From assembly GCA_016932965.1 (NCBI GenBank), contig JAFGBW010000231.1:1-21022 (forward strand): 21,022 bases of DNA. The letters run 5' to 3'. The position numbers and the translations under genes are program-made. Under the pieces are notes generated by a model, which had not been told where the DNA came from, made no database searches, and worked only from the letters and a program-made list of their open reading frames with translations. Positions 4,458-16,825 of the stretch are shown here, piece by piece. Positions within the stretch are counted from its first letter, which is position 1, and every line of letters starts with the position of its first letter. Source of the DNA: Candidatus Auribacterota bacterium. GTDB lineage: Bacteria > Auribacterota > JAFGBW01.

Positions 4458-4503
4458 TAGGGCCAGAGGAGTTTGACAATTCCGGAAATATTTCAAGAAA
4501 TAG

Positions 4504-4696
4504 TTTCATCATGGAGGACACGGAGAGCAGAACGAGTTATGAATGTTGAGTTTTGACTCGAAGCCAGGAAAGCGAAGAGGGACGACTTGAGTCACCCGCA
4601 AGGGCACGATGCCCGCAGTCCAATTTTGAGTTCAAATGAAATTTCATCATTCCAACTCATCATTCAAAATTCACAATTCCAGTTTCCGTGATGAAA
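4504..4696. repeat. Dispersed intergenic repeat, copy 1
   Basis: A gene-free stretch between convergent genes with near-inverted ends: TTTCATCATGGA at 4504 and, on the other strand, TTTCATCACGGA from 4696 (11 of 12 match). The left 24 nt match copy 2 (12362-12385) at 20 of 24 positions. On the minus strand 4660-4624 matches copy 2 (12409-12445) at 32 of 37 positions. On the minus strand 4615-4598 matches copy 3 (16730-16747) at 17 of 18 positions, and 4586-4575 matches 16762-16773 at all 12. A GGGCA/TGCCC hairpin lies at 4602-4614. It encodes nothing and has no transposase. It looks like a small non-autonomous, MITE-like or RNA-structure repeat; the class is inferred. Confidence 0.7.
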
Positions 4697-4745
4697 AGAA
4701 TGAATAAGTTTTTTATAGATTATGCCACTATGGCTGAAGAAAAGA

Positions 4746-5120
4746 TTAAAGAGCCCATTTTTCGATGGTTTTTTGCAAGGAATCGAAGATGACCGGTTTA
4801 ACGATGAAGTCATTGACGCCGTTTAAAAAACACTGCTCGCGTTTTTCCCGGCTGGCAAAAGCGGAAAGAATGATGATGGGGATGTTTTTTTTATCCCAGT
4901 CTTTTTCGCGGATTTTTTGAGCTGCAGTCAGGCCGTCCACCTTGGGCATATTGATGTCCATGATGATCAGATCGATTTTTTCCTTTTCAAGGATGTCGAG
5001 TACTTCCTGTCCGTCTCTGGCCAGAACATGAGGATATCCCATGTCTTCCATGAGCAAGGTCAGCAGTTTTAGATTAGAAGGAATATCGTCAGCAATAAGA
5101 ATTCTGGATTTTTTTTTCAT
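4746..5120 (-). CDS. Stand-alone response regulator receiver protein (CheY-like)
   Basis: A 124-residue protein made only of a phosphoreceiver domain, with no DNA-binding or enzymatic output domain. The acidic pocket is D11-D12, the phospho-accepting aspartate is D55 (MDINMP), the switch Ser is S86 and the conserved lysine is K108 (VKP). All needed residues are present, so it should accept phosphate from a histidine kinase, but no kinase is in the window. It is the last gene of a three-gene minus-strand group, 49 nt after the CsgG-like gene, with only a weak ribosome binding site (GGATT). It probably acts through protein-protein contact, for example on motility or envelope proteins; the partner is unknown. 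It could also be a detached piece of a hybrid kinase. Confidence 0.9.
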   Translation of the reverse strand: MKKKSRILIADDIPSNLKLLTLLMEDMGYPHVLARDGQEVLDILEKEKIDLIIMDINMPKVDGLTAAQKIREKDWDKKNIPIIILSAFASREKREQCFLNGVNDFIVKPVIFDSLQKTIEKWAL

Positions 5121-5169
5121 AATCCAATAGCCGTTGAATCATGACCTTTTCTTATTTTTTGATCAAGTT

Positions 5170-5802
5170 TCATTTTTTGCGCGGAGCCTGTCTGCAGATA
5201 TCGTAAGCCATTTCTTTTGTGGCCCGATCCAGTGCATTTGAAATCAAGCCGTCCTTGTTTTTCTCTCCTTCTTTGACCGCACCAAGAGCCTTTTTTACTG
5301 CGGTTTTTTCCTTGCCGTTCCATTTGGAGATGGCCAGGATTTCTCCGGTGGACAGATTCACGAGCCGGCCTTCCAGACTGATTTCCAGAGTAGTCTCCTC
5401 TTTTGAAATGATCCCCAGGCTTTTTTTCTGTTTATTTTCTGAAACATGGATGATGCTGCCCAAGAGCATCAATTCCGCGCCAAGCTGCTTTCCAAGCTGG
5501 CTGACCGTTTCCTGTTTGAAATAATCTGTCTGTTGAATCTGGAGTTCCTGAAGGACAGCCGTCAGTTTTTCCCTTTCTATGATCCTGAAGCGCTGATAAG
5601 AAAAAATTTCATAGATCATCTGGTCGGCAACCGGATTGCCGAGGTATTGGTATTGTTGTTCTTTGGTTTTATCTTCAAACGGCATGACGGCCAGGAGATA
5701 CCTTTCTTTTTCATCAAAAGGTTCCAATATCTGTTTGGATTCTTTGGGAATAAGATGGGTGGAAAGCATAAAAATGATGAGCCACATCCAAGATTTTTTC
5801 AT
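5170..5802 (-). CDS. CsgG/FlgO-like exported protein
   Basis: A 210-residue protein with an N-terminal hydrophobic signal (about 1-19) and no clear lipobox cysteine. The body resembles the CsgG/FlgO/LpoB fold family: AVMPFED at 38-44, a LGNPVADQM helix, the IIEREKL strand at 74-80, then LGKQLGAELMLLGSI at 103-117 and a RLVNLSTGEIL strand near 146-156. Family members bind or build periplasmic and outer-membrane structures (curli pore, flagellar outer-membrane proteins, peptidoglycan synthase activators). The protein is shorter than CsgG (about 260-280), and I see no pore-forming segment, so a secretion channel is doubtful. It overlaps the upstream glycosyltransferase gene by 4 nt (ATGA), so the two are probably translationally coupled. 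The precise role is unknown. Confidence 0.75.
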   Translation of the reverse strand: MKKSWMWLIIFMLSTHLIPKESKQILEPFDEKERYLLAVMPFEDKTKEQQYQYLGNPVADQMIYEIFSYQRFRIIEREKLTAVLQELQIQQTDYFKQETVSQLGKQLGAELMLLGSIIHVSENKQKKSLGIISKEETTLEISLEGRLVNLSTGEILAISKWNGKEKTAVKKALGAVKEGEKNKDGLISNALDRATKEMAYDICRQAPRKK

Positions 5803-6926
5803 GGGGAATTCCTTTTTTTATGAACCGTTTCCTGAATAGCCTGTTTTATTTTTTCAATAAATTCTGCCGCAGAGAACCGGTTAACGGTTTCCCGGAAAGC
5901 TTCAACAGAAAAAGAAGATTGTTCAGCCTTTTGGACGGCCTGGATCAGAGAATCCGTAGTCTGCTCCTGAAAAAAACAGCCGGTTTTTCCTTCTGTAACG
6001 GTTTCGAGAAGCCCTCCTTTATGATAGGCAATGACAGGGGTGGCAAAAGCCATGGCTTCGAGAGGGACAATGCCGAAATCTTCCACCCCAGGGAAAAGAA
6101 GGGCTTTGGCGGATTTAAGCCACTGGAATTTTTCTTCATCTCTCACCCATCCCAGGAATTGGACAGTAGGACCGGCTAATTTTCTTAATCGTTGTATTTC
6201 AGGCCCTGATCCGATTACTTTCAAAGGATACCGGCATAGATTGCAGGCTCTGATGGCCAAATCGATCCGTTTATACGGAACCAGGGCAGACAAAACCAGA
6301 TAATAATTTGATTTCGGCAAAGAAGGGGTAAAGGGAATATCCACGGGTGGGTAAATGATATCGGATTGCCGGTGATAATATTTTTGGATTCTTTCCTGAA
6401 CGGTTTTTGAGATGGCAATGATCCGGCTGATTCTTTTTGCCCCTTCTTCATCCCATCTTTTTAAATGATGAATAACCGGAGACAATAACAAGTGTTTGAG
6501 CTTATTTTTTCCGAAATATTCCTCCTGAAGTTCCCAGATATACCGCATGGGACTGAAGCAATAGCACAGATGAGGGGTCCCTTCAGGCACAGGAACGTTT
6601 TTTGCCGCACAGTGAGAGGTGGACAGAACCAGATCGAAATCCCTGAAATGGAATTGTTTCACTGCGGCAGGATAGAGCGGAAGATACCATCGGTAGAGTC
6701 TGTCCTTATAAGGAAGCTGATTGATGAAGGAAGGATGGATGCTATGATTAAGAATGTCTGCAGAGATTCTGGCCGGGTCCATGTGCAGGGTGTAAATGGG
6801 TGCCCGGGGAAAAAGCCGGCACAGTTGTTCCAGCACTTTTTCTCCTCCCCGCATGCCGTTCAGCCAATCATGAACAAAAGCTACTTTCAGGTTTGAAAAC
6901 ATGGTAGGCAGTATACATTTTTTCAT
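5799..6926 (-). CDS. Glycosyltransferase, GT4 family (group 1)
   Basis: A retaining GT-B glycosyltransferase that transfers a sugar from a nucleotide-sugar donor, most likely in surface-polysaccharide or O-antigen synthesis. From the chosen start it has 375 residues. The N-terminal acceptor domain begins KVAFVHDWLNGMRGGEKVLE, a pattern of WbaZ-like mannosyltransferases. The donor domain starts near VLSALVPYKR (about 211-220) and has the EX7E motif EDFGIVPLE at 282-290. The start is uncertain: an in-frame GTG at 6938 has no ribosome binding site, ATG 6926 has a weak one (GGTG), and ATG 6902 gives the most compact N-terminus. It is first in a three-gene operon, overlapping the CsgG-like gene by 4 nt. 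The sugar and acceptor cannot be read from sequence. Confidence 0.88.
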   Translation of the reverse strand: MKKCILPTMFSNLKVAFVHDWLNGMRGGEKVLEQLCRLFPRAPIYTLHMDPARISADILNHSIHPSFINQLPYKDRLYRWYLPLYPAAVKQFHFRDFDLVLSTSHCAAKNVPVPEGTPHLCYCFSPMRYIWELQEEYFGKNKLKHLLLSPVIHHLKRWDEEGAKRISRIIAISKTVQERIQKYYHRQSDIIYPPVDIPFTPSLPKSNYYLVLSALVPYKRIDLAIRACNLCRYPLKVIGSGPEIQRLRKLAGPTVQFLGWVRDEEKFQWLKSAKALLFPGVEDFGIVPLEAMAFATPVIAYHKGGLLETVTEGKTGCFFQEQTTDSLIQAVQKAEQSSFSVEAFRETVNRFSAAEFIEKIKQAIQETVHKKRNSP

Positions 6927-7065
6927 GGTTATCACCACGAATAACTTTTTATCTGCCCTGTCCGGTAATAAATAGGATCATGAGTTAACCCTGACGAATA
7001 AGTTAGGATTGAGAATTAAGAACAAGGAGCCTATAGACCCGTCATAACCAGGATTCCCATTGAGA

Positions 7066-7094
7066 TTGATAAAATAAAAGAGAAATAATATCAT
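7066..7094 (+). promoter_or_regulatory. Candidate sigma-70-type promoter for the DUF362 gene
   Basis: TTGATA (7066-7071) and TATCAT (7089-7094) each match the consensus hexamers at 5 of 6 positions and are 17 nt apart. The downstream ATG is at 7125, after an AGAGGA ribosome binding site at 7115-7120. Confidence 0.55.
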
Positions 7095-7124
7095 TGGGAT
7101 AGAATCAAGATAAAAGAGGATCCC

Positions 7125-8195
7125 ATGAACCAAGCTGTTGTTTTTCATGTTCCGGTTTCGGAAACAGACACTGTCCAACAGATTCAAAATCAATTTTCCA
7201 GGATGCTTGACTCAAGCGGTCTGTTCCAGGATGTGTTGCCCGGGTTCAAACCGGTTATTAAAATGCATTTCGGGGAGGAAGGCAATACGGGTTTCGTTGA
7301 TCCGTCCTTTGTGAGGGTTTTGTGTCAGGATTTGATTAAAAGAGGATCAAGTCCGGTTCTTGCAGATACCAACACGTTGTACAGGGGACGGCGTGTATTT
7401 TCAGATGAGCATAGAAAACTGGCCTATGAGCACGGTTTCACGCCGGAGAACACCGGCGCTCGTGTTGAAATTCCGGATGAAAGAAGGCAGGAAGAGGTGG
7501 TTATTGTTTCCGTGAATGAGAAACAGGTGAAGGAAGCCAAGCTGTTAAGATTGTTCACCGGGTCGGAAATGCTGGTTTCCCTGGCACATTTCAAGGGTCA
7601 TATCATGTCGGGTTTTGGGGGAACGTTAAAGAATCTGGGAATGGGATGCGCGACCCGGGAAGGCAAGCTTTTCCAGCATGGTGATGTGGCTCCGGTTGTG
7701 GAGTCAGCCGCTTGCATTGCCTGCGGCGCCTGTGTAAATGTATGTCCTGCTGATGCCGTTTCGATGGTGAATGGCAAGGCCCGGGTGGATGAAGGTAAAT
7801 GCATCGGCTGTGCGAGCTGCATTGCCGCGTGCGCTTACGAGGCCATGAGCGTCAACTGGGGAAAGGGCGGTGCGACTCTCCAGCCTAGGATGGTTGAATA
7901 TGCTGCCGCGGTTGTTCGTAGTGTCCGCTCATTTGCCTGCATCAATTTTGCGACAAAGATCACGGCTGAATGCGACTGCCTGGCCAAGGATGACCCCAGG
8001 ATTGTTCCGGACATCGGGATTTTTGCCGGCCGGGATCCTGTGGCTGTGGATCAGGCCTGTTATGATTCGGTGATCCAGAAGGCGGGCAAAGATGTTTTCA
8101 AAGAAGCCCATAGTTACTGTGATCCTGCCGTTCAGCTGGCTTACGCTGAAAAACTCAAAATCGGAACCAGGAAATATAAGCTACAGGTCCTTTGA
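7125..8195 (+). CDS. DUF362 domain protein with two [4Fe-4S] ferredoxin clusters
   Basis: A 356-residue cytoplasmic protein (no signal peptide). The N-terminal and C-terminal parts belong to the DUF362 family (VIKMHFGEEGNTGFVDP near 44-60, LAHFKGHIMSGFGGTLKNLG near 153-172, GRDPVAVDQACYD near 302-314). Between them is a bacterial-ferredoxin insert with cysteines 197/200/203/207 and 226/229/232/236, which should hold two [4Fe-4S] clusters. An extra cysteine pair, ECDC, lies at 282-285. Such proteins are common in anaerobes and are often annotated as Fe-S binding proteins; the reaction is not established, though electron transfer is implied. It has its own promoter and a good ribosome binding site and is monocistronic, convergent with the agmatine deiminase gene. 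The start is well supported. Confidence 0.92.
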   Translation: MNQAVVFHVPVSETDTVQQIQNQFSRMLDSSGLFQDVLPGFKPVIKMHFGEEGNTGFVDPSFVRVLCQDLIKRGSSPVLADTNTLYRGRRVFSDEHRKLAYEHGFTPENTGARVEIPDERRQEEVVIVSVNEKQVKEAKLLRLFTGSEMLVSLAHFKGHIMSGFGGTLKNLGMGCATREGKLFQHGDVAPVVESAACIACGACVNVCPADAVSMVNGKARVDEGKCIGCASCIAACAYEAMSVNWGKGGATLQPRMVEYAAAVVRSVRSFACINFATKITAECDCLAKDDPRIVPDIGIFAGRDPVAVDQACYDSVIQKAGKDVFKEAHSYCDPAVQLAYAEKLKIGTRKYKLQVL

Positions 8196-8295
8196 AAAGG
8201 AATCCGCGAAATATCAGGGAATACCCCACTTTTTTTTTCTGTGGAGGAATCAATTCTCCGTCTGTAAGGACTTTTTGAGAGCCCTGATCAGAGGT

Positions 8296-9333
8296 TCAAT
8301 AGATCTGCTGGGTCAGGCAGTGGACACCCCCAAGTCCACGGACGAATGTGAGTCCAGGAACGGGTATGATTTTCCGCTCAGGACAAAGCCGTGTCAATAT
8401 TTCCATTGCCACTTTGTCTTTGGGATCGTTGAAGACGGGCAGGACGAGGATTTGATTGGCAAAATAAAAATTGGCGTAGGAGGCGGGGATTCTGAAATCC
8501 TGGAAATATTTCGGTTCAGGCATGGGAAGCTTGACGATGTGGAATGGTTTGCCCATGAGATTGGTTTCGGATAATAGCTGTTTATAGGCTTCGTCAAGCG
8601 GCTCAAAATTTTCATCTTTTGGATCCTCTTCATGGGAACAGACAATGATATGGGGATTGACGAATCGGGCGAAATCATCAATGTGGCCGTCTGTATCATC
8701 ACCGGCGATCCCTTGTTCCAGCCAGATGATTTTTCTGATTCCCAGATACTGACGTAATTTGTTTTCGATGCTTTTTTGGTTCAGATGGGGATTTCTGTTC
8801 GGATTCAACAGGCAGCTTTTTGTCGTGAGAAGGACCTCCTCACCATTCACATCAATGGAACCTCCCTCCAAAATCATTTCAGGTTCTAAGAGAGCCGGAC
8901 ATCCTATCCATTCGGCAAACCTTTTTTTTATCTGGTTGTCATCGTCCCATGGAGGATATTTCCCCCCCCAGGCATTATATCCCCAGTTGGTGATGGCCCA
9001 ATTTTTTTTCTCTGAATGAGACCAGACGTAATTAGGACCGGTGTCTCTCATCCAGCAATCATTATTTGAGACAGGAGGAAAATGAATCCGGGACAGATGG
9101 CCTCCCTGGTGTATGACGGATTGAAGGATGGCCTGTTTATCGTCAAGGGGTTTTGTTGAAATATAAACATCTTCAAATTGCGAGATAGCCGAGGCCAGGA
9201 CAGCCATGTCTTCCTGGACCTGGTGTTCTGTTCCTTTCCATGTTTCCGGATTGGTAGGCCAGGCGATGAGCGTCCCGCGATGGATGTTCCATTCAGCAGG
9301 CATAAAGTAGGGGGATTGTCGGCTGTCGTTCAT
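8296..9333 (-). CDS. aguA: Agmatine deiminase
   Basis: Converts agmatine to N-carbamoylputrescine and ammonia, a step of putrescine synthesis from arginine. The 345-residue protein has the family's catalytic landmarks: RDTGP at 96-100, EGGS at 156-159, GDDTDGHIDD at 211-220 with the catalytic histidine H217, and the nucleophile cysteine C339 in GGVHCLTQQ at the C-terminus. The length fits the bacterial enzymes (about 340-370), and no active-site residue is missing. The ribosome binding site is weak; Met11 is an alternative start but would lose the usual MPAEW lead-in. The usual partner, N-carbamoylputrescine amidase (AguB), is not in the window. It follows the exonuclease gene by a short gap and may share its transcript. 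Confidence 0.95.
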   Translation of the reverse strand: MNDSRQSPYFMPAEWNIHRGTLIAWPTNPETWKGTEHQVQEDMAVLASAISQFEDVYISTKPLDDKQAILQSVIHQGGHLSRIHFPPVSNNDCWMRDTGPNYVWSHSEKKNWAITNWGYNAWGGKYPPWDDDNQIKKRFAEWIGCPALLEPEMILEGGSIDVNGEEVLLTTKSCLLNPNRNPHLNQKSIENKLRQYLGIRKIIWLEQGIAGDDTDGHIDDFARFVNPHIIVCSHEEDPKDENFEPLDEAYKQLLSETNLMGKPFHIVKLPMPEPKYFQDFRIPASYANFYFANQILVLPVFNDPKDKVAMEILTRLCPERKIIPVPGLTFVRGLGGVHCLTQQIY

Positions 9334-9369
9334 GGTAAGTCTTTATAGGATTAATTGTTTTTCAAACGG

Positions 9370-9975
9370 TTATGCTTTCTGCTGATGAGAGGGAGGATTG
9401 ATCGAGGGTAGTTTGAGCATTTCCAGATAAATTTGTCTGCACACCCAGGCATCCGTTGCTGCGTAGAGGAGCTGTTTGCGGGTTAGAACCGGATTCTCCC
9501 AATTGGAGGTCCGGGCAGATTTGGAAATCCTGATTTTTAAGAAAATAGCCGCCAGGCTTTTTAAATTTAAAGGCGAACACTTCCATTGTTTGGCCAGAGA
9601 CACCAGATCAATGATCCCTTTGACTTTGACCCCGTGTTCTTCGTTTAATTTGTTTATTTCATATCCGGGTTCCTGTCCAATCTTAAGGATTTTTTCATTT
9701 TGAAGGATATATTTTAATCTGGAGGGGATACCGGTTTTGGATATTGCGAAAAGACAAACATGATCCTGCGACGCCAGCTGAAGCAACGCAATGGGGTGGT
9801 GCTCCCCTTTTTTAAAGGAGGGTTTTGTTTCTGTGTCAAAACCAAGGATTTGTTCATCCTGAAGAAAAGAAAGGATGGAGTCACTTTCCTTTAGGGTGGA
9901 AGCAAAATGAATTTTCCCTGTAAAATGAAACAGGGGAAGATTGATCAAAGTATCCTTGTTGAGCACGTATTCCAT
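9370..9975 (-). CDS. 3'-5' exonuclease domain protein (DnaQ-like, WRN/RNase D type)
   Basis: A 201-residue protein made of one exonuclease fold. Exo I is GFDTET with D47 and E49; Exo III is YAATDAWVCRQIY with Y171 and D175. The family's Exo II aspartate is replaced by glutamate: the motif reads GYEINKL (E106) where most members have D. It lacks the HRDC domains of RNase D, so it resembles the short WRN-exonuclease-like proteins. The substrate (RNA or DNA ends) cannot be told. The frame could extend to a TTG at 10011, adding 12 unconserved residues; I prefer the ATG at 9975, though neither has a good ribosome binding site. It is first in a possible two-gene unit with the agmatine deiminase gene, with no obvious functional link. 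Confidence 0.85.
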   Translation of the reverse strand: MEYVLNKDTLINLPLFHFTGKIHFASTLKESDSILSFLQDEQILGFDTETKPSFKKGEHHPIALLQLASQDHVCLFAISKTGIPSRLKYILQNEKILKIGQEPGYEINKLNEEHGVKVKGIIDLVSLAKQWKCSPLNLKSLAAIFLKIRISKSARTSNWENPVLTRKQLLYAATDAWVCRQIYLEMLKLPSINPPSHQQKA

Positions 9976-10106
9976 GATATGATCATAAATGAAGATTGTA
10001 TAAAATACCAACGTTTTCTTTCATCATAATCGAAAACAATCCAAGTATTTAGTATCTTTAATTATTTCCAGGAAAGCAAGTTATAACTATTATTCGAATG
10101 AATATA

Positions 10107-10134
10107 TTGTTTGGTATTTTATTTGCTAAATAAT
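10107..10134 (+). promoter_or_regulatory. Candidate promoter for the coiled-coil protein gene
   Basis: TTGTTT (10107-10112) and AATAAT (10129-10134, 5 of 6 to consensus) are 16 nt apart. Transcription from it would start near 10141, after the ATG at 10133, which supports translation from the GTG at 10163. Confidence 0.4.
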
Positions 10135-10147
10135 GGCAAGGAATAAA

Positions 10148-10153
10148 AAGGAG
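10148..10153 (+). promoter_or_regulatory. Ribosome binding site that decides the start of the coiled-coil gene
   Basis: AAGGAG sits 9 nt before a GTG at 10163. The upstream in-frame ATG at 10133 has no ribosome binding site, and its extra residues would put ten mostly charged residues in front of an otherwise classic signal peptide. Confidence 0.75.
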
Positions 10154-10162
10154 TTTAAAAAA

Positions 10163-12298
10163 GTGAAGAAAACTCTACTCATTATGATAGCTATATTTGG
10201 TTTTATTACTCTTAGCTGGGCCGCCAAACTGACTTTTTATGATGGAACGATTTTGGATGGTAAAATCGTTAAAGTCACTGAAGATGAAGTGACTTTACAA
10301 TATGATTTTGGCCAGATTGACCGTCAGAGAAGCCAGATTGCCTCCATCACGAATATGGACCCGTCAGAAGAGGCGTTGTTTGCTGCGATAAAACAAAATG
10401 CTGTTCCGGAACGTCAGGAACAGATCGTTTCCTTCAATTCACAACCTGTTCGACAGGAAAGAGATACTTATGCAGTCGCCGATTCTCAAAAAGGATTATT
10501 ACATAGCGATCAGGCAGACACGGAAGAAGACAACCTTGAAAGCGGAGACCTTCGCAAATCCGTCATGAATTCGCTCGCAGCATTAAAGGAAAGTTTAAAA
10601 GTGCAATATGAAAAGGAAAAAAATGAATTGATACAATCCTTTGAGAGGGAGAGGAATTTATTGGGAAATAAGCTTGAAGAACTTTCCGGCAATAATTCCA
10701 GGCTCAAAGAAGAGCTGGAAAGTGAAAAGCTGAAAACCTCGGCCCTGACTGTACGTCTTGAAGAGCAGCGGAATATGAATAATCAGCATCAGGAAAGCAT
10801 AGTGGAGTTTAAAAATGAGCTGGCTCAAGCCCATGAAAACAGTTTGAAAACAGAAGTGGTTTTTACGGAAAAGATGCAGGCCGCTTTGAAAAACAACCGG
10901 GAAGCATACGAGAAAGAAAAGCGATCTTTGATTGATGACTATGATGCCAGAAATTCGGAACTGGAAAAAGAATGGGCGAGGGCGAATAAAAAAATACTGG
11001 AACTGGCCAGAGAAAAGACCGATTTGGAGGCCAGGCTGGCTGCTACGGAAAAATTAAGCGATCAGACAGGAAAGGCTCTGTCTATTCTGGAAAGAGAATT
11101 CGATAAGTATAAAAAGGACATGAAACAAAATCACGCCGAGTTAAAAGCATCTGCTGAAAAAGAAAAGGGAGCGTTGGAAAAACTTCTGAATTCCAGCGGC
11201 GAATCCTTTGTCAGGATCAGGGACGAAAACACAGCCCTTCAGGAAAAAAACACTCAATCGCAGGAGCAGATCGAATCGCTCAAAACCCAAATAGAATCCT
11301 TGAATGATAAAATTGAATTCCTGGAAAATGAAAAGAGGAAAAATCAGGCGGAAATCCTGCGGGTATATGAGAAAATCAAGCAGACAAAGGAAGAGAATAA
11401 ACAGGAAAGAGAAAAACTGCTCAAGTCTCTTATTCAAGGGGCCATGGAGAAAAAGAAACAGGCCGGTTACTCCGGTGCGGCAGCTTCTTTACAAACAGCC
11501 GATGATTCCAGCCTGTTAGGCAGGAGAGGCATGATGGAGTTATTTCAGGATGATTTGAACGCCATGCGCTCCCAGCTGGAAAAAATGAAGAAACACGTAG
11601 CCAGATTAAATGAGGAAAATGCTTTTCTTAAAACCATCGCCCAGAGAAAAAGCCGAGAAATGAATCAGTTGGAAGCAGAGCTTGGCGATGCGAGAACAAA
11701 CATCATCAGACTGGAAGAAGAAAAAACGAATTTAAAAATCGAGATGGACAAAACCGTAAAAAGAATCCGCATGGAAGATAAACTGCATTATGAAAGGGAA
11801 AGAGACCAGATCGCCAAAGAGCATGATCGTTCAGTCCATTCTCTTGAAAGTAGGATCAGGGAGCTGGAAGACCGGATATCAGGAGCTTCCGCATCCCATC
11901 CGGAGCCTCTGCAGGAAGAGGAAGAAGACGTGTTGTCGTTTCCATTTTTGCTTCCCGAGAGGCGGCCCGAGATGAAGGTCTCAACGAAACAGGATGTGAT
12001 TCTAAAAAGGCCTTCACAGCCGGCCCCGGAAGAAATCACGGCCATTCAAAGGTCCTCTTCTATCAAGGTCAATGTTGGAACGGTTTCAGATATTGAACCT
12101 GATTTCAACCGGATTTATATTGAGACAAAAGAAATCGTCCGTGAAGGTGATATGCTTTACTTTTTGACTGACAAAGGCGAGGAGGTTCCTCTTTCCGTCA
12201 TCAAGGTTTTCAAGGATTTAAACGGCGCTATTGCCGAGATAAGGGATCCCCAAAAAATTCAAGGTCTGAAAATCCAGGCCACGGTCTATGCCCGGTAA
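10163..12298 (+). CDS. Secreted long coiled-coil protein of unknown function
   Basis: From the GTG the protein has 711 residues. It begins with a Sec signal peptide (MKKTLLIMIAIFGFITLSWA, cleavage likely after residue 20). A small beta-rich segment follows (AKLTFYDGTILDGKIVKV, about 21-65). Next comes a long, highly charged coiled coil (about 135-575, E/K/Q-rich, few prolines), interrupted near 436-462 by GAAASLQTADDSSLLGRRG. A proline-rich linker leads to a C-terminal beta-rich domain (about 631-711, IKVNVGTVSDIEPDFNRIYI...). I do not recognise the family. The architecture suggests a periplasmic or surface spacer with a globular end at each side. It is monocistronic, divergent from the exonuclease gene. 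Coiled coils give false similarity to myosin and SMC proteins; no ATPase motif is present. Confidence 0.8.
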   Translation: MKKTLLIMIAIFGFITLSWAAKLTFYDGTILDGKIVKVTEDEVTLQYDFGQIDRQRSQIASITNMDPSEEALFAAIKQNAVPERQEQIVSFNSQPVRQERDTYAVADSQKGLLHSDQADTEEDNLESGDLRKSVMNSLAALKESLKVQYEKEKNELIQSFERERNLLGNKLEELSGNNSRLKEELESEKLKTSALTVRLEEQRNMNNQHQESIVEFKNELAQAHENSLKTEVVFTEKMQAALKNNREAYEKEKRSLIDDYDARNSELEKEWARANKKILELAREKTDLEARLAATEKLSDQTGKALSILEREFDKYKKDMKQNHAELKASAEKEKGALEKLLNSSGESFVRIRDENTALQEKNTQSQEQIESLKTQIESLNDKIEFLENEKRKNQAEILRVYEKIKQTKEENKQEREKLLKSLIQGAMEKKKQAGYSGAAASLQTADDSSLLGRRGMMELFQDDLNAMRSQLEKMKKHVARLNEENAFLKTIAQRKSREMNQLEAELGDARTNIIRLEEEKTNLKIEMDKTVKRIRMEDKLHYERERDQIAKEHDRSVHSLESRIRELEDRISGASASHPEPLQEEEEDVLSFPFLLPERRPEMKVSTKQDVILKRPSQPAPEEITAIQRSSSIKVNVGTVSDIEPDFNRIYIETKEIVREGDMLYFLTDKGEEVPLSVIKVFKDLNGAIAEIRDPQKIQGLKIQATVYAR

Positions 12299-12361
12299 AC
12301 AATCAAGCACAGCTTTTGATTTCTAAAAAAGTTTGTTCAATACGGGAATATCTAAAATAAT

Positions 12362-12460
12362 TTTCACCACGAAGGACACGAAGAGAGATTAGAAGAAGAT
12401 TTAAAGTTATGAGTTGGAATGATGACATTTTATCTGAGCTCATAACTCAACATTCCAAGT
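12362..12460 (+). repeat. Dispersed intergenic repeat, copy 2 (short form)
   Basis: It begins TTTCACCACGAAGGACACG, matching the left end of copy 1 (20 of 24), and contains ATGAGTTGGAATGATGA at 12409-12425, identical to 17 nt on the minus strand of copy 1. Two interleaved inverted repeats occur: GTTATGAG (12406-12413) with CTCATAAC (12439-12446), and TTGGAATG (12414-12421) with CATTCCAA (12451-12458). The GGGCA/TGCCC hairpin of the other copies is missing, so it is probably a deleted form. It lies between the convergent coiled-coil and trxB genes. Confidence 0.6.
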
Positions 12461-12505
12461 CCACGGCGTTACCGGAGGTGATTTAATAGGTAGATGATTT
12501 CCGGG

Positions 12506-13432
12506 TTAATCGACGCCGGTTAAAAAGCGTTCAGTTTCCAGGGCGGCCATGCAGCCTGTTCCTGCGGCAGTGATGGCTTGTTTCCAGTAACGATCCTGTA
12601 CGTCCCCGCAGGCAAAAACCCCTTTGATGGAAGTCTTGGTGGAATTGGATTGCGTTATGATGAATCCTTCTTTGTCCAGGAGAATCTGGTTTTTCAAGAA
12701 ATTCGTATTGGGGGTATGGCCGATCGCATAAAACAGTCCGGAACAGGCCAGATTCTTTATTTCGCCGTTTTGGACGTTTTTCAAGTTCACTGACTCCAAG
12801 ATTTTCTGGCCCTTGGCTTCCGTCACAACCGTATTCCAGATGATTTCGATTTTAGGATTTTTCAGCAGCCTTTTCTGCATGATTTGCGATGCTCGTAATT
12901 GATCTCTCCGATGGATCAGATAGATTTTGGAGCCGAACCGGGATAAATGCAGTGCTTCTTCAGCGGCCGAATCACCGCCTCCGATCACAACGAGCACCTT
13001 GTTTCTGAAAGCAGGCAGAGCTCCATCACAGACGGCGCAGGCTGAAATACCCCTCTGCCAGAACTGTTCTTCTCCGGGGATGTTCAATTTTTTTGCCGTT
13101 GCGCCTGTCGCAATGATGAGGGTTTCAGATTCCAGTTCCTGGGTTTGACTTTTGACTTTGAAAGGCCGGGAGGAAAGCTGAACTGAATGGATTTCCTCGC
13201 TGAGGATCCGCACTCCGGCATGAAGAGACTGCTCTTTCATTTTGGTCATGAGTTCCATTCCGTTGATCCCTTCCTGAAATCCCGGAAAATTCTCAATCAC
13301 GGTCGTGGTCGTCAATTGACCTCCGGCCTGAATTCCTTCAAACATCAATGGATTTAAGTTCGCCCTGGCCGCATAAATCGCTGCTGTGTGTCCCGCCGGT
13401 CCTGATCCGATGATTACTACTTTTTCTGTCAT
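12506..13432 (-). CDS. trxB: Thioredoxin reductase
   Basis: FAD enzyme that passes electrons from NADPH to thioredoxin in the cytoplasm. The 308-residue protein has the FAD-binding GSGPAG at 9-14, the redox-active disulfide CAVC at 132-135 followed by DGA, the NADPH-binding GGGDSAAEEA at 151-160 with HRR at 174-176 for the 2'-phosphate, and the C-terminal FAD motif GVFACGD near 271-277. Length and motif spacing are standard for low-molecular-weight TrxB. An AAGGAT ribosome binding site lies about 8 nt upstream of the ATG. It appears monocistronic; palindromes separate it from proA. Its likely partner, the thioredoxin at 17834-18157, is encoded elsewhere in the window. Confidence 0.97.
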   Translation of the reverse strand: MTEKVVIIGSGPAGHTAAIYAARANLNPLMFEGIQAGGQLTTTTVIENFPGFQEGINGMELMTKMKEQSLHAGVRILSEEIHSVQLSSRPFKVKSQTQELESETLIIATGATAKKLNIPGEEQFWQRGISACAVCDGALPAFRNKVLVVIGGGDSAAEEALHLSRFGSKIYLIHRRDQLRASQIMQKRLLKNPKIEIIWNTVVTEAKGQKILESVNLKNVQNGEIKNLACSGLFYAIGHTPNTNFLKNQILLDKEGFIITQSNSTKTSIKGVFACGDVQDRYWKQAITAAGTGCMAALETERFLTGVD

Positions 13433-13527
13433 AGCCGATATCCTTTATTTAGCTTATTAAAATAAGACTGTCTTTTAGTTCTTACTTTAAGAAAAGAGAA
13501 AAACAAAATATTTTTATAATATTATTT

Positions 13528-13562
13528 CGCTTTCATGGGAACATTTTGTTCTCATGAAAGCG
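13528..13562. repeat. Inverted repeat with 16-nt arms and 3-nt loop
   Basis: Left arm CGCTTTCATGGGAACA (13528-13543), loop TTT, right arm TGTTCTCATGAAAGCG (13547-13562). One position is G against T, so the plus-strand RNA pairs fully with one G-U, while the minus-strand RNA has one A-C mismatch. No U-run follows directly on either strand, so it is not a typical intrinsic terminator. It lies upstream of trxB and downstream of proA on the minus strand. Confidence 0.8.
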
Positions 13563-13587
13563 CCGATAAAAATTTTTTGAAAAGGGA

Positions 13588-13623
13588 GCGGGAAAATCTT
13601 TTTTATAAAAAAGATTTTCCCGC
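13588..13623. repeat. Perfect 36-nt palindrome
   Basis: GCGGGAAAATCTTTTTT (13588-13604), centre AT, AAAAAAGATTTTCCCGC (13607-13623). The whole 36 nt equals its own reverse complement. It starts 36 nt past the proA stop on the minus strand. The short G-C-capped stem could end proBA transcription, but the U-run is inside the stem, not after it, so the terminator role is a guess. It could also be a protein-binding or replication-related palindrome. Confidence 0.85.
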
Positions 13624-13659
13624 AAATCCTTACCCCTTGTTAAAATTTAATGTAGATCA

Positions 13660-14943
13660 TTATTCCCGGATATGGCCTTTGCCGATGATCACATATTTAT
13701 AGGTGGTCAATTCTTTAAGCCCCATGGGGCCTCGGGCGTGGAGCTTATCAGTGCTGATTCCCATTTCTGCACCCAGGCCGAACTCGAAACCGTCGTTGAA
13801 CCGGGTGGAAGCATTCACAAAAACTGCGGAAGAGTCCACGTTTTGAATGAATTTGGATGCTGTGGTTTTATTTTCCGTGATGATGCTGTCGGAATGGCGC
13901 GATCCGTACAGTTCAATATGCTCAATGGCTCCCTGCACGGAATCTACAATACGGATGGAAAGGATCTTGTCCAGGTATTCGGTTTTCCAGTCTTGTTCGG
14001 TAGCGGCTTCAAGGGTCGGATCAATTTTTCGTGCGGCTTCGCATCCCTTTAAAAGCACATTTTCTTTTTTATATTCGCTGATCAGTGCCGGCAGAATATC
14101 CCGGGCGATCTCCCGGTCGACTAAGAGTGTTTCCATGGCATTGCAGACGCCTGGCCTCTGTACTTTGGCGTTTAAGGAAATATGAATGGCCTTTTTAAAA
14201 TCTGCTTCCTTGTCGATGAAGACATGGCAAATACCTTTATAATGCTTGATGACCGGAATTTGCGAGTGGTTGGTCACAAATTCGATCAGTCCTTCTCCGC
14301 CCCGGGGGATGATGAGATCCACCTTGTCTTTTTGCTTCAATAATTCCAAAACAGCCTCTCTTTCCTTAAAGGGAATGAGGGTGACACATTCTTCCGGCAG
14401 TTTGAGCTCTTTAAGCGTTTCACAGATGCAGAAAGCCAGGCTGCGATTGGTATAAAAGGATTCCTTGCCTCCTTTGAGGATGACGGCATTTCCGCTTTTT
14501 AAAGTCAAAGCCGCCGCATCAATCGTCACATTGGGTCGGGATTCATAGATCATTCCGATGACTCCAATGGGAACAGAGATTTTGGAGATTTCAAGACCGT
14601 TTGGACGAACGGTTTTATCCAGAATCACACCCAGAGGGTCCGGTAAAGCGACGATCTGTTCAAGAGAGAGCAACAGGCTTTCAAGGCGTTTGTCATTCAA
14701 GGTCAGCCTGTCGAGTATGGCGCTGGTTAATTTATTTTTTCTGGCCAGTTGGAGGTCTTTTTCATTGGCTGCCAGGATCACGGGTTTTTCCTGCTGGATT
14801 TTTTTCGCCAGCAACTTCAGGATTTCATTTCTTTTATCCAGAGGCAGATTGGCGAGGCTAAACCAGGCTCTTCTTGCCTTGAAGCAAATGGATTTGATGG
14901 TTTCAGTTATCTCATAGCTGGATTCAGAAGACTTCGATGTCAT
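13660..14943 (-). CDS. proA: Gamma-glutamyl phosphate reductase
   Basis: NADPH-dependent reduction of gamma-glutamyl phosphate to glutamate semialdehyde, the second step of proline synthesis. The 427-residue protein has an aldehyde-dehydrogenase fold with the catalytic cysteine C267 in RPGVCNAMET, the nucleotide-binding region ESRPNVTIDAAALTLKSGNA near 134-153, and the family C-terminus FEFGLGAEMGISTDKLHARG. Length matches the family (about 415-430). An AAAGGAG ribosome binding site lies about 8 nt before the ATG. It follows proB by 49 nt on the same strand and is the second gene of a proBA operon. No anomalies seen. Confidence 0.98.
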   Translation of the reverse strand: MTSKSSESSYEITETIKSICFKARRAWFSLANLPLDKRNEILKLLAKKIQQEKPVILAANEKDLQLARKNKLTSAILDRLTLNDKRLESLLLSLEQIVALPDPLGVILDKTVRPNGLEISKISVPIGVIGMIYESRPNVTIDAAALTLKSGNAVILKGGKESFYTNRSLAFCICETLKELKLPEECVTLIPFKEREAVLELLKQKDKVDLIIPRGGEGLIEFVTNHSQIPVIKHYKGICHVFIDKEADFKKAIHISLNAKVQRPGVCNAMETLLVDREIARDILPALISEYKKENVLLKGCEAARKIDPTLEAATEQDWKTEYLDKILSIRIVDSVQGAIEHIELYGSRHSDSIITENKTTASKFIQNVDSSAVFVNASTRFNDGFEFGLGAEMGISTDKLHARGPMGLKELTTYKYVIIGKGHIRE

Positions 14944-14992
14944 GATTGATTCAGGCTCCTTTTATAAATTTAAGACATAGGAAGTCATTTTT

Positions 14993-16129
14993 TCATGGGG
15001 GTTGATTCTGGATCACCGCCAGATTGTCCTTATGGATGACTTCCTCATAAATGATGTTGTTTTCCAACACTTGAGAAAATTCCCTGCTTTTCAGCCCCTT
15101 GATTTTCAAGATATCAGCAGAGGAATAATTCACCAGTCCACGGGCCACTTCCTCCCGGTCACAAAGTACACGGACCACCATACCTTTATTGAATTCTCCC
15201 GTGACATTTCGGATTCCGATGGCCAGAAGGGAACTGTTTTTCTTTATGAGGGCGGTTTTGGCTCCCTCATCCACATGAATTTCCCCATGGGGTTTTGCAA
15301 AATACGCGATCCATCTTTTTTTACGTTTCATGAAGGTTTCTGATGGAAGGAACAATGTGCCCAATTCCTTTCCCTCGAAAAGCTCCTGCAAGACATGCAT
15401 TTTATTTCCATTCGCCAGGATGACGGGTTTTTGGCTGTTAACCAGCTGTTGAATCGCGAGGATCTTGGATTTCATCCCTCCTGCCCCGAAAGAAGATTGG
15501 GAATCGGTAATTTTAAAAAGGACGTTTTTATCAATTTTTTCAACAAGCGGGATCACGGATCCGGCTTTTTCCATGTCAAGAAAACCGTCGATATTGCTGA
15601 GGATGATCACGAGGTCCGTGTAAACAGTATGGCTGACAAGGGTGCAAAGCCGGTCATTGTCGCCAAAGGTGATTTCATGTGTGGCTACGGTGTCGTTTTC
15701 ATTGACAATGGGTATGATTTTTTTATTCAGGAGAGCTGAAAAAGTATTGGTGATATTCAAATACCTGTTCGGATTCTGAAAATCTTCCTGAGTAACGAGG
15801 AGCTGGGCAATTTCCACATGATGTTTATTGAACTCGTTCCGGTATGCTTCGATCAAAAGGGTTTGCCCCACGGCAGCCAGGGCCTGGATATCAGGCAGCG
15901 TCTGGGGTCTTGACCTGATCCCCAGTTTTCCCATGCCTGAGGCAATGGCGCCTGAGGAAACCAGGATGATTTGCTTTTTATATTGTGTCGAGAGGATGTA
16001 AATTTGTTCAGCCAGATGGGAGACCCTGGACCGGTTCAAACTCCCTGATTCCGCGGCAAGGACATTGGAGCCAATCTTGATGACAATTCGCTTTGCATTT
16101 TTTAAAATTCGCTGTCTGATGTCTTTCAT
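14993..16129 (-). CDS. proB: Glutamate 5-kinase with PUA domain
   Basis: Phosphorylates glutamate to gamma-glutamyl phosphate, the first and usually proline-inhibited step of proline synthesis. The 378-residue protein has an amino-acid-kinase domain with IVIKIGSN at 15-22, VSSGAIASG at 57-65, NENDTV at 143-148 and FGDND at 155-159. A C-terminal PUA domain follows (about 280-360, GEIHVDEGAKTALIKKNSSL...). The full two-domain form matches E. coli ProB (367). An AGG ribosome binding site lies about 7 nt before the ATG. It is the first gene of the proBA operon and divergent from the small secreted-protein gene, with 79 nt between starts. Confidence 0.98.
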   Translation of the reverse strand: MKDIRQRILKNAKRIVIKIGSNVLAAESGSLNRSRVSHLAEQIYILSTQYKKQIILVSSGAIASGMGKLGIRSRPQTLPDIQALAAVGQTLLIEAYRNEFNKHHVEIAQLLVTQEDFQNPNRYLNITNTFSALLNKKIIPIVNENDTVATHEITFGDNDRLCTLVSHTVYTDLVIILSNIDGFLDMEKAGSVIPLVEKIDKNVLFKITDSQSSFGAGGMKSKILAIQQLVNSQKPVILANGNKMHVLQELFEGKELGTLFLPSETFMKRKKRWIAYFAKPHGEIHVDEGAKTALIKKNSSLLAIGIRNVTGEFNKGMVVRVLCDREEVARGLVNYSSADILKIKGLKSREFSQVLENNIIYEEVIHKDNLAVIQNQPP

Positions 16130-16146
16130 GGTCTGCCTGAAAACTA

Positions 16147-16175
16147 TTGTTTTTTTTAATGGGATAGGATATAGT
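16147..16175 (+). promoter_or_regulatory. Candidate promoter for the small secreted protein gene
   Basis: TTGTTT (16147-16152) and TATAGT (16170-16175) with exactly 17 nt between them. The -10 matches 5 of 6; the -35 only 3 of 6. An AGAGGAG ribosome binding site follows at 16193-16199. Confidence 0.4.
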
Positions 16176-16208
16176 ATACATTAGGTAGAAAAAGAGGAGT
16201 TTATTAAA

Positions 16209-16637
16209 ATGAAATCTTTTTTTCAAATAATAATGTGTTGCTGGCTGGGACTGAGTCTGGCTTATGCGGAGGGTCCGGTTATTTATCAGGGCATTCCGGT
16301 TTCAGTCGAGCAAAATACCGATAAAAACAGGGTGGTCAGAGGAATTTTGGTCGGGCGCCCCTATCGTGAAGCGGTTGTATATCAGGGCTATCGTGTGGAT
16401 ACACGCCCGGTGTATCGGGGCATCCTTGTTTCCCCGGGGTGGGGTAGCAGCACGACCACCCGTTATCATTATGAGGACCCCGGTTACGCCCTGGCGGAAA
16501 GCCTCATTACGTTTGGAATCGTCGGAGGATTGACCGCTCTTATTCTCTCTTCCGGACATCATCATGGGTATGCATCATGGGGACATCATCATCGGTCTTC
16601 CCGTTGGAGAGGGACATGGGGTTTCCATCGCCGCTAA
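16209..16637 (+). CDS. Small secreted protein with YQGI-type repeats, a hydrophobic helix and His clusters
   Basis: 142 residues of unknown family. A signal peptide (MKSFFQIIMCCWLGLSLAYA) is followed by four short related strands: VIYQGIPV (24-31), RVVRGILV (41-48), VVYQGYRV (56-63) and PVYRGILV (67-74). A hydrophobic stretch lies at about 95-115 (ESLITFGIVGGLTALIL), then a C-terminal tail rich in His, Trp and Arg with HHH at 117-119 and HHH at 126-128. The repeats could form a small beta structure; the hydrophobic segment could anchor it in a membrane; the histidines could bind metal. These roles are inferred from composition. The ribosome binding site and start are strong, so the gene is probably real. 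It lies divergent from proB and has no co-oriented neighbour. Confidence 0.75.
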   Translation: MKSFFQIIMCCWLGLSLAYAEGPVIYQGIPVSVEQNTDKNRVVRGILVGRPYREAVVYQGYRVDTRPVYRGILVSPGWGSSTTTRYHYEDPGYALAESLITFGIVGGLTALILSSGHHHGYASWGHHHRSSRWRGTWGFHRR

Positions 16638-16642
16638 TTTTT

Positions 16643-16789
16643 TAACCACGAAAAGCACGAAAATATTCTTTATGATAAAACATCCTTAATATGATTTTAG
16701 GATAATCAATTTTTCGTGTCTTGGGATTTCGGGCATCCTGCCCTTGCCTTACGGCGACTACGTCGTCCCTCTTTACCGTCGTGGTTTCT
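16643..16789 (+). repeat. Dispersed intergenic repeat, copy 3
   Basis: Its ends are a perfect 8-nt inverted repeat: AACCACGA at 16644-16651 and TCGTGGTT at 16779-16786. The inner part holds the hairpin GGGCATCCTGCCC (16731-16743), and 16730-16747 matches copy 1 on its minus strand at 17 of 18 positions. GTCGTCCCTCTT (16762-16773) is identical in copy 1. It lies between the convergent small secreted-protein gene and moxR. No coding frame is present. Confidence 0.65.
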
Positions 16790-16825
16790 AATCTTTTTTA
16801 TTTTTAAGGATAAAAAGTATTTTAG

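Follow-up and report, generated by a model that had tools for sequence, protein, structure and literature searches.

Three short non-coding stretches that resemble one another, at positions 4504-4696, 12362-12460 and 16643-16789, lie within 21,022 nucleotides of contig JAFGBW010000231.1 of Candidatus Auribacterota bacterium (GCA_016932965.1), and they raise the question of what kind of repeat they represent and what could have dispersed it. This whole stretch of DNA, here called the window, is contig 17 of an Auribacterota metagenome-assembled genome of 300 contigs and 3.14 Mb that is 92.6% complete (the source genome). The three copies are probably non-autonomous or decayed members of a superfamily of iteron-ended mobile elements whose only protein is GxxExxY and which would be driven by this nuclease. 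The copy number, the element boundaries, the association of the gene with the ends, the co-evolution of iteron class and protein clade and the intact catalytic residues were observed directly; cutting of the iterons by the nuclease, and mobility driven by it, are what we infer.

A sequence-only reading of the window had described the three copies as one repeat family, and the shared blocks were found where it placed them. Copies 1 and 2 are alike over 47 nt in inverted orientation (4624-4670 and 12399-12445, 81%), and copies 1 and 3 over 24 nt (4598-4621 and 16724-16747, 88%, inverted) and again at 4555-4586 and 16762-16793 (75%, inverted). The best local scores were 24.5 for copies 1 and 2 and 22.0 for copies 1 and 3, while 300 dinucleotide shuffles reached 17.0 and 14.5 at most; copies 2 and 3 on their own were not significant (12.0 against a maximum of 14.0 in 300 such shuffles). 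BLAST searches of the source genome gave 45, 52 and 33 matches for copies 1, 2 and 3, respectively, and the end motif CCACGAAGGACACGAA had 256 matches, compared to 29 for its reversed control. Chance similarity was ruled out by the shuffles, for the pairs 1-2 and 1-3, and by these match counts. The earlier reading had called for such a genome-wide search and had set a handful of copies as the least to be expected; the number found was above this by a wide margin.

The anatomy of the elements in the source genome was read from the stretches around the matches. These contained 40 distinct inward-facing arm pairs (median size 137 bp), and the elements were intergenic. Each arm consists of two or three iterons, CACG(A/G)AGNN, preceded by TTTCA or TTTAA. 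Both arms of one element carried the same A/G version at 70 of 79 positions, while shuffling gave a mean of 40.2 and a maximum of 54. The exact variant end CCATGAAGGACATGAA was present at six places (contigs C53, C101, C116, C165, C182 and C196), which suggests a sub-family that has spread recently.

The gene that belongs to these ends was approached from both directions. For the reverse test, loci were picked by the 26-mer CCACGRAGGACACGRAGAGCACGRAG alone and the nearest inward-facing arm pair was taken; the results refer to the matches listed. The exact 26-mer occurred in Chloroflexota, Planctomycetes, Verrucomicrobia, Proteobacteria, Acidobacteria, spirochaetes and others. The arms were less than 100 bp apart in 54 pairs, 100-200 bp in 23, 200-380 bp in six and 380-650 bp in five; at these sampled loci no nearest arm pair exceeded 650 bp, including the range of 650-1500 bp that is typical of insertion sequences (IS). 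A GxxExxY gene was enclosed by all five pairs of 380-650 bp, by one of the six of 200-380 bp and by none of the 77 shorter ones, and it was the sole gene recovered within arm pairs at element size. For the forward test, 117 near-full-length GxxExxY genes from ~50 genomes were examined and a flanking inverted repeat was counted if its score was at least 14. A matched flanking inverted repeat was present at 97 of the 117 genes and at none of 129 control sites, and for Auribacterota genes, which were chosen without regard to repeats, the counts were 42 of 49 and 0 of 111. The arms beside GxxExxY are likewise iteron arrays with a period of ~9 bp, and the two arms of a locus match each other but differ in sequence from those of other loci (CACGAAGGA, CACAGAGGA, CGCGGAGGC, CGCAAAGNN, CACAGATTA, CGCGGATTN, ACAGGATNN and others). 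A TIGR04256 protein above the curated cut-off between inverted iterons characterizes the GxxExxY-bearing units and not the non-coding window copies. All five GxxExxY loci of the source genome adjoin iteron arms; four are decayed and have CACGAAG-type arms and one is intact and has CGCAGAG-type arms. Units with CACGAAG ends are present in other genomes. The same arrangement was also found in plasmid records, e.g., of Bacteroides finegoldii and Gemmatirosa. Only 8 of 72,556 plasmid records contained GxxExxY, and the viral contigs searched contained no GxxExxY relative. On a Fusobacteria plasmid (L514) a 22-bp repeat, CAGATTTAATCCGTGTACCTAT, stands on both sides of GxxExxY in direct, not inverted, orientation.

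The limits of the coding unit were apparent from homologous units at unrelated loci and in different genomes, which were 73-83% identical. In the clearest pairs (L274/L306, L304/L306 and L274/L304) the alignments stopped 2-10 bp outside one outer iteron and 2-8 bp outside the other; some other pairs aligned further on one side. As homologous copies align only as far as the outer iterons, the coding unit measures ~430 bp. The iteron class was then mapped on a GxxExxY protein tree that had been built without the arms, and in which 54 genes belonged to the class ending in AG and 30 to that ending in AT. The observed distribution required two changes on the tree, compared to a mean of 24.8 in free shuffles; when labels were shuffled inside each genome that holds both classes the mean was 16.6, and 0 of 500 shuffles was as low as two. 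In this mapping the iteron class co-evolves with the protein clade, even inside single genomes. With respect to their surroundings, 53 GxxExxY genes were co-directional with both neighbors and four were opposed to both. Gene names read from the flanks placed one between sufD and sufS in Herpetosiphon; others lie between fabD and fabG on a Sphingomonas plasmid and, in operon direction, at radA. This co-directional placement suggests that the GxxExxY gene relies on read-through from the host.

GxxExxY (TIGR04256/PF13366, PDDEXK_3) has ~120 amino acids and no sequence relatives in the PDB. Its fold was predicted from six sequences with a mean pLDDT (predicted local distance difference test) of 85.6. 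In structure it came closest to Cas4 SSO0001 (4ic1; Z 9.1); further PD-(D/E)XK enzymes, among them Hjc and restriction enzymes, ranked next. Residues E39, D79 and K91 were invariant in all 117 sequences, and E89, Q103 and Y107 were conserved in 111, 113 and 114 of them. GxxExxY is thus a predicted minimal RecB/Cas4-like PD-(D/E)XK nuclease with intact catalytic residues.

These observations can be joined into a mechanism. The core unit would be a short element bounded by inverted arrays of ~9-bp iterons (CACGAAGNN / CACGGAGNN), and its coding members would be the widespread ~430-bp units in which inverted iterons enclose a GxxExxY gene. Such units lie between host genes, usually in their direction, and are probably read along with them. 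Most likely, GxxExxY would recognize the iterons that bound its own gene, or a hairpin or cruciform formed by them, and cut there, after which host repair or recombination could copy or move the unit and its gene-less derivatives. The broader proposal, that GxxExxY and inverted 9-bp iterons form an undescribed cross-phylum class of minimal mobile elements (~430 bp, one RecB/Cas4-like nuclease, no recognized transposase and no target duplication) with gene-less derivatives that account for several recurrent intergenic repeats (the types CACGAAGGA, CACAGAGGA, CGCAAAGNN, CACAGATTA and CGCGGATTN and related ones), we consider evenly balanced between true and false.

Several results weigh against mobility driven by GxxExxY. 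About one sixth of the GxxExxY genes had no detectable arms, and apart from the four decayed loci of the source genome nothing of a gene is left in the short elements. In that genome, CACGAAG/CACGGAG ends do not accompany any intact GxxExxY, and the window copies may therefore be immobile now. The mobile, non-autonomous character that had been suggested for the repeat is supported by the copy number, the terminal inverted repeats, the median size of 137 bp and the coding relatives with the same ends; the proposed check for target-site duplications gave no signal, i.e., no excess of direct repeats at GxxExxY units. Likewise, the proposed search for a transposase with matching ends revealed no DDE, HUH, serine or tyrosine transposase between the arms, where GxxExxY was the only gene recovered at element size. 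No clean pair of empty and filled orthologous sites was found, as the sufD-sufS slot was filled in all six Herpetosiphon genomes. At other Herpetosiphon slots the palindromes differed from one sister species to the next; this shows rapid turnover but no single clean event. In these slots (L489-L508) the iteron types CACGAAG, CGCAGAG, GGCTATNN, GGATGAAG and GGGATCAG were observed in sister species, some of them without a link to GxxExxY in the present data. Finally, simple co-inheritance of arms and gene could also yield the tree result, and for this reason specific recognition of the iterons by GxxExxY is only a candidate property. Beyond the iterons of GxxExxY units the flanks had a modest inverted excess (5.31 compared to 4.68, standard deviation (sd) 0.13). 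For the short elements of the source genome neither the interiors (8.3 compared to 7.4, sd 0.64) nor the outer flanks (5.67 compared to 6.27, sd 0.35) exceeded partner shuffles, and insertion into palindrome centers is not claimed.

Within the window, the copies are better explained as nested composites of unrelated dispersed units than as rearranged modules. Four layers could be discerned, of which the iteron-ended short element is one. Copies 1 and 2 both contain an outer unit U and, further in, an AT-rich inverted pair (GAGTTATGAGTT...AACTCATAACTC), and copies 1 and 3 both contain a hairpin module H. The order and orientation of the blocks do vary between copies, as had been stated when modular rearrangement was proposed, but this follows from independent repeat units lying nested in one another. 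Copy 1 (all features on the + strand) begins with the left part of U (GTTTGACAATTCCGGAAATATTTC..., 4471..4503), a sequence that accompanies ~34 further iteron elements and can also occur on its own. It is followed by the left terminal iteron arm TTTCATCATGGAGGACACGGAGAGCA (4504..4529), which fits CCACG(A/G)AGGACACG(A/G)AGAGCACG(A/G)AG with substitutions, and by the left inner AT-rich arm GAGTTATGAATGTTGAGTTTTGA (4534..4556), a module with many copies in the genome that forms an inverted pair with a stretch ending at 4672. H (TTGACTCGAAGCC...GGGCACGATGCCCGCAGTCCAA, 4553..4623) has three hairpins here. The right inner AT-rich arm (4624..4672) holds the inverted match with copy 2 and pairs with the left inner arm, and the decayed right terminal arm CCGTGATGAAA (4686..4696) is inverted to 4504-4514 of the left arm. 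Copy 2, also on the + strand, comprises the left part of U (12330..12361, within a U match at 12328-12366), the left terminal iteron arm TTTCACCACGAAGGACACGAAGAG (12362..12387, with an exact 16-mer match at 12367-12382) and the inner AT-rich inverted pair (AGTTATGAGTTGG...CTCATAACT, 12399..12447) that matches copy 1. In copy 3 the left terminal iteron arm AACCACGAAAAGCACGAAAA (16644..16663, + strand), identified from its sequence and genome matches, faces a right arm on the - strand that is split by H: the inner part (TTTTTCGTGTCTT) occupies 16710..16722, H, aligned with other H copies, 16723..16779 (- strand), and the outer part (CGTGGTTT, inverted to 16644-16650) 16780..16787. The inverted-repeat ends that had been described were thus present, in short form, in copies 1 and 3, but copy 2 has a left iteron arm only, its right arm being unrecognizable. 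The window also contains a perfect palindrome with 20-bp arms (GCGGGAAAATCTTTTTTATA/TATAAAAAAGATTTTCCCGC) at 13588-13623, and a similar one, GCGGGAAGATCTTTTTTATAAAAAAGATCTTCCCGC, lies near the GxxExxY remnant on contig C86 (near L287:1330).

Elsewhere in the source genome U (TTAATCCGGTAAACCACCGGCACAGCCTTTGGACTGGCAAAGTTTGACAATTCCGGAA...) was found at some 45 places. An iteron element was present in ~34 places, U occurred without one at L426, L438 and L106 (minus-strand readings L426:1504, L438:1504 and L106:2192), and at L128 a 40-bp palindromic stub took its position. At two places (L053 and L419) U is closely followed by a ribosome-binding site and start codon. U may act as a regulatory RNA, or it may be a further mobile unit, bounded by CACCGGCANAGCC. 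The stretches fetched from the source genome contained 21 copies of H (TTGACTCGAAGCC...GCAGTCCAA), which measures about 75-90 bp; besides splitting the arm of copy 3, H lies inside the decayed GxxExxY gene on C86. It has short ends of its own, TTGACT/AGTCCAA.

The alternative that survives best, though we think it unlikely, is that the iteron palindromes are selected structured RNA or terminator elements and that GxxExxY genes are mere passengers. The arms change in step, like a paired stem, and the elements are intergenic. The GGGCA/TGCCC hairpin with an altered loop that had been reported for copies 1 and 3 was found, and the window copies themselves are non-coding, as had been stated. H folds into conserved hairpins, and double changes occurred in 5 of their 15 pairs, but the covariation term was -0.03, so that support for the suggested RNA-structured repeat is weak. 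Rfam gave no match above the gathering score for the repeats, U included, and only tRNAs in neighboring loci. All three window copies lie between convergent genes, as first described, but genome-wide this is no trait of the family: gaps with the arm motif were tandem in 47 cases, convergent in 21 and divergent in nine, compared to 42, 19 and 17 for gaps without it. As these orientations are similar with and without the motif, convergence is not a family property and the convergent neighbors of the window copies are a coincidence; a mostly tandem setting in which convergent 3' ends are not enriched also speaks against this alternative. So do the identical 26-mer ends in many phyla, the element boundaries at unrelated loci, and the agreement of iteron class with protein clade, which holds inside a single genome as well.

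We give still less credit to the view that the short elements belong, as miniature inverted-repeat transposable elements (MITEs), to a conventional DDE insertion sequence that did not turn up, with GxxExxY as cargo. The terminal inverted repeats, the small size, the high copy number and a coding partner with the same ends (decayed only, in the source genome) agree with it. The GxxExxY units, however, have no target-site duplication, the ends enclose none of the four transposase types of classical insertion sequences, and among the matches listed no nearest arm pair had IS size and GxxExxY was the sole enclosed gene. Somewhat more improbable again is a free-standing homing-type GxxExxY nuclease that cuts an unoccupied intergenic DNA site (or shortens the co-transcribed mRNA that encodes it, where the arms pair) and leaves the short repeats as relics of target sites. 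Intergenic homing genes are likewise inserted between operon genes, as GxxExxY is, in operon direction, at sufD-sufS, fabD-fabG and radA, but its insertion sites are diverse and not one allelic site, and the matched inverted iterons around it set it apart, as we know of no homing genes bounded in this way. The weakest candidate, repetitive extragenic palindromic (REP) sequences or bacterial interspersed mosaic elements (BIMEs) spread by a REP-associated tyrosine transposase (RAYT, of the Y1 type), can hardly be credited, for although H is a small palindromic module that occurs in mosaics and Planctomycetes are among the phyla known to have such repeats (PMC3733652), the ends are 9-bp iterons with no GTAG-tagged hairpin, and membership was rejected because no Y1 (HUH) transposase was found in the 92.6% complete source genome (PF01797, Y1_Tnp: 0 matches; the same search was positive in 5 of 14 control genomes).

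If mobility driven by GxxExxY is correct, a large uncharacterized nuclease family would have a biological function, a set of intergenic repeats found in phylum after phylum would be explained, and the unit would rank among the smallest self-contained mobile units of bacteria and do without any known transposase. The prediction is that each GxxExxY protein recognizes iterons of the class that bounds its own gene. In the open-access papers searched (subscription papers and preprints were outside the scope) no description of GxxExxY as a mobile element or of its iteron ends was found, and a nuclease-linked family of iteron-ended elements thus appears to be undescribed so far.

Among known systems, the gene within the ends is a member of the GxxExxY family (TIGR04256/PF13366), which is annotated by motif only. 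With the Cas4/RecB-family nucleases (SSO0001, 4ic1) it has in common the fold and the D...ExK and QxxxY-type residues; unlike Cas4, it is only ~120 amino acids long and matches Cas4 models marginally in sequence. REP/BIME systems with RAYT (TnpA-REP) resemble the window family as mosaic, palindromic, dispersed intergenic repeats, but iteron arms here take the place of the GTAG-tagged unit and the Y1 transposase is missing. Like MITEs, the window family is short, non-coding, high-copy and intergenic, and has terminal inverted repeats in common with a coding element. Unlike MITEs, its ends are arrays of 9-bp iterons with no target duplication detected, and its coding relative carries a PD-(D/E)XK nuclease gene instead of a DDE transposase.

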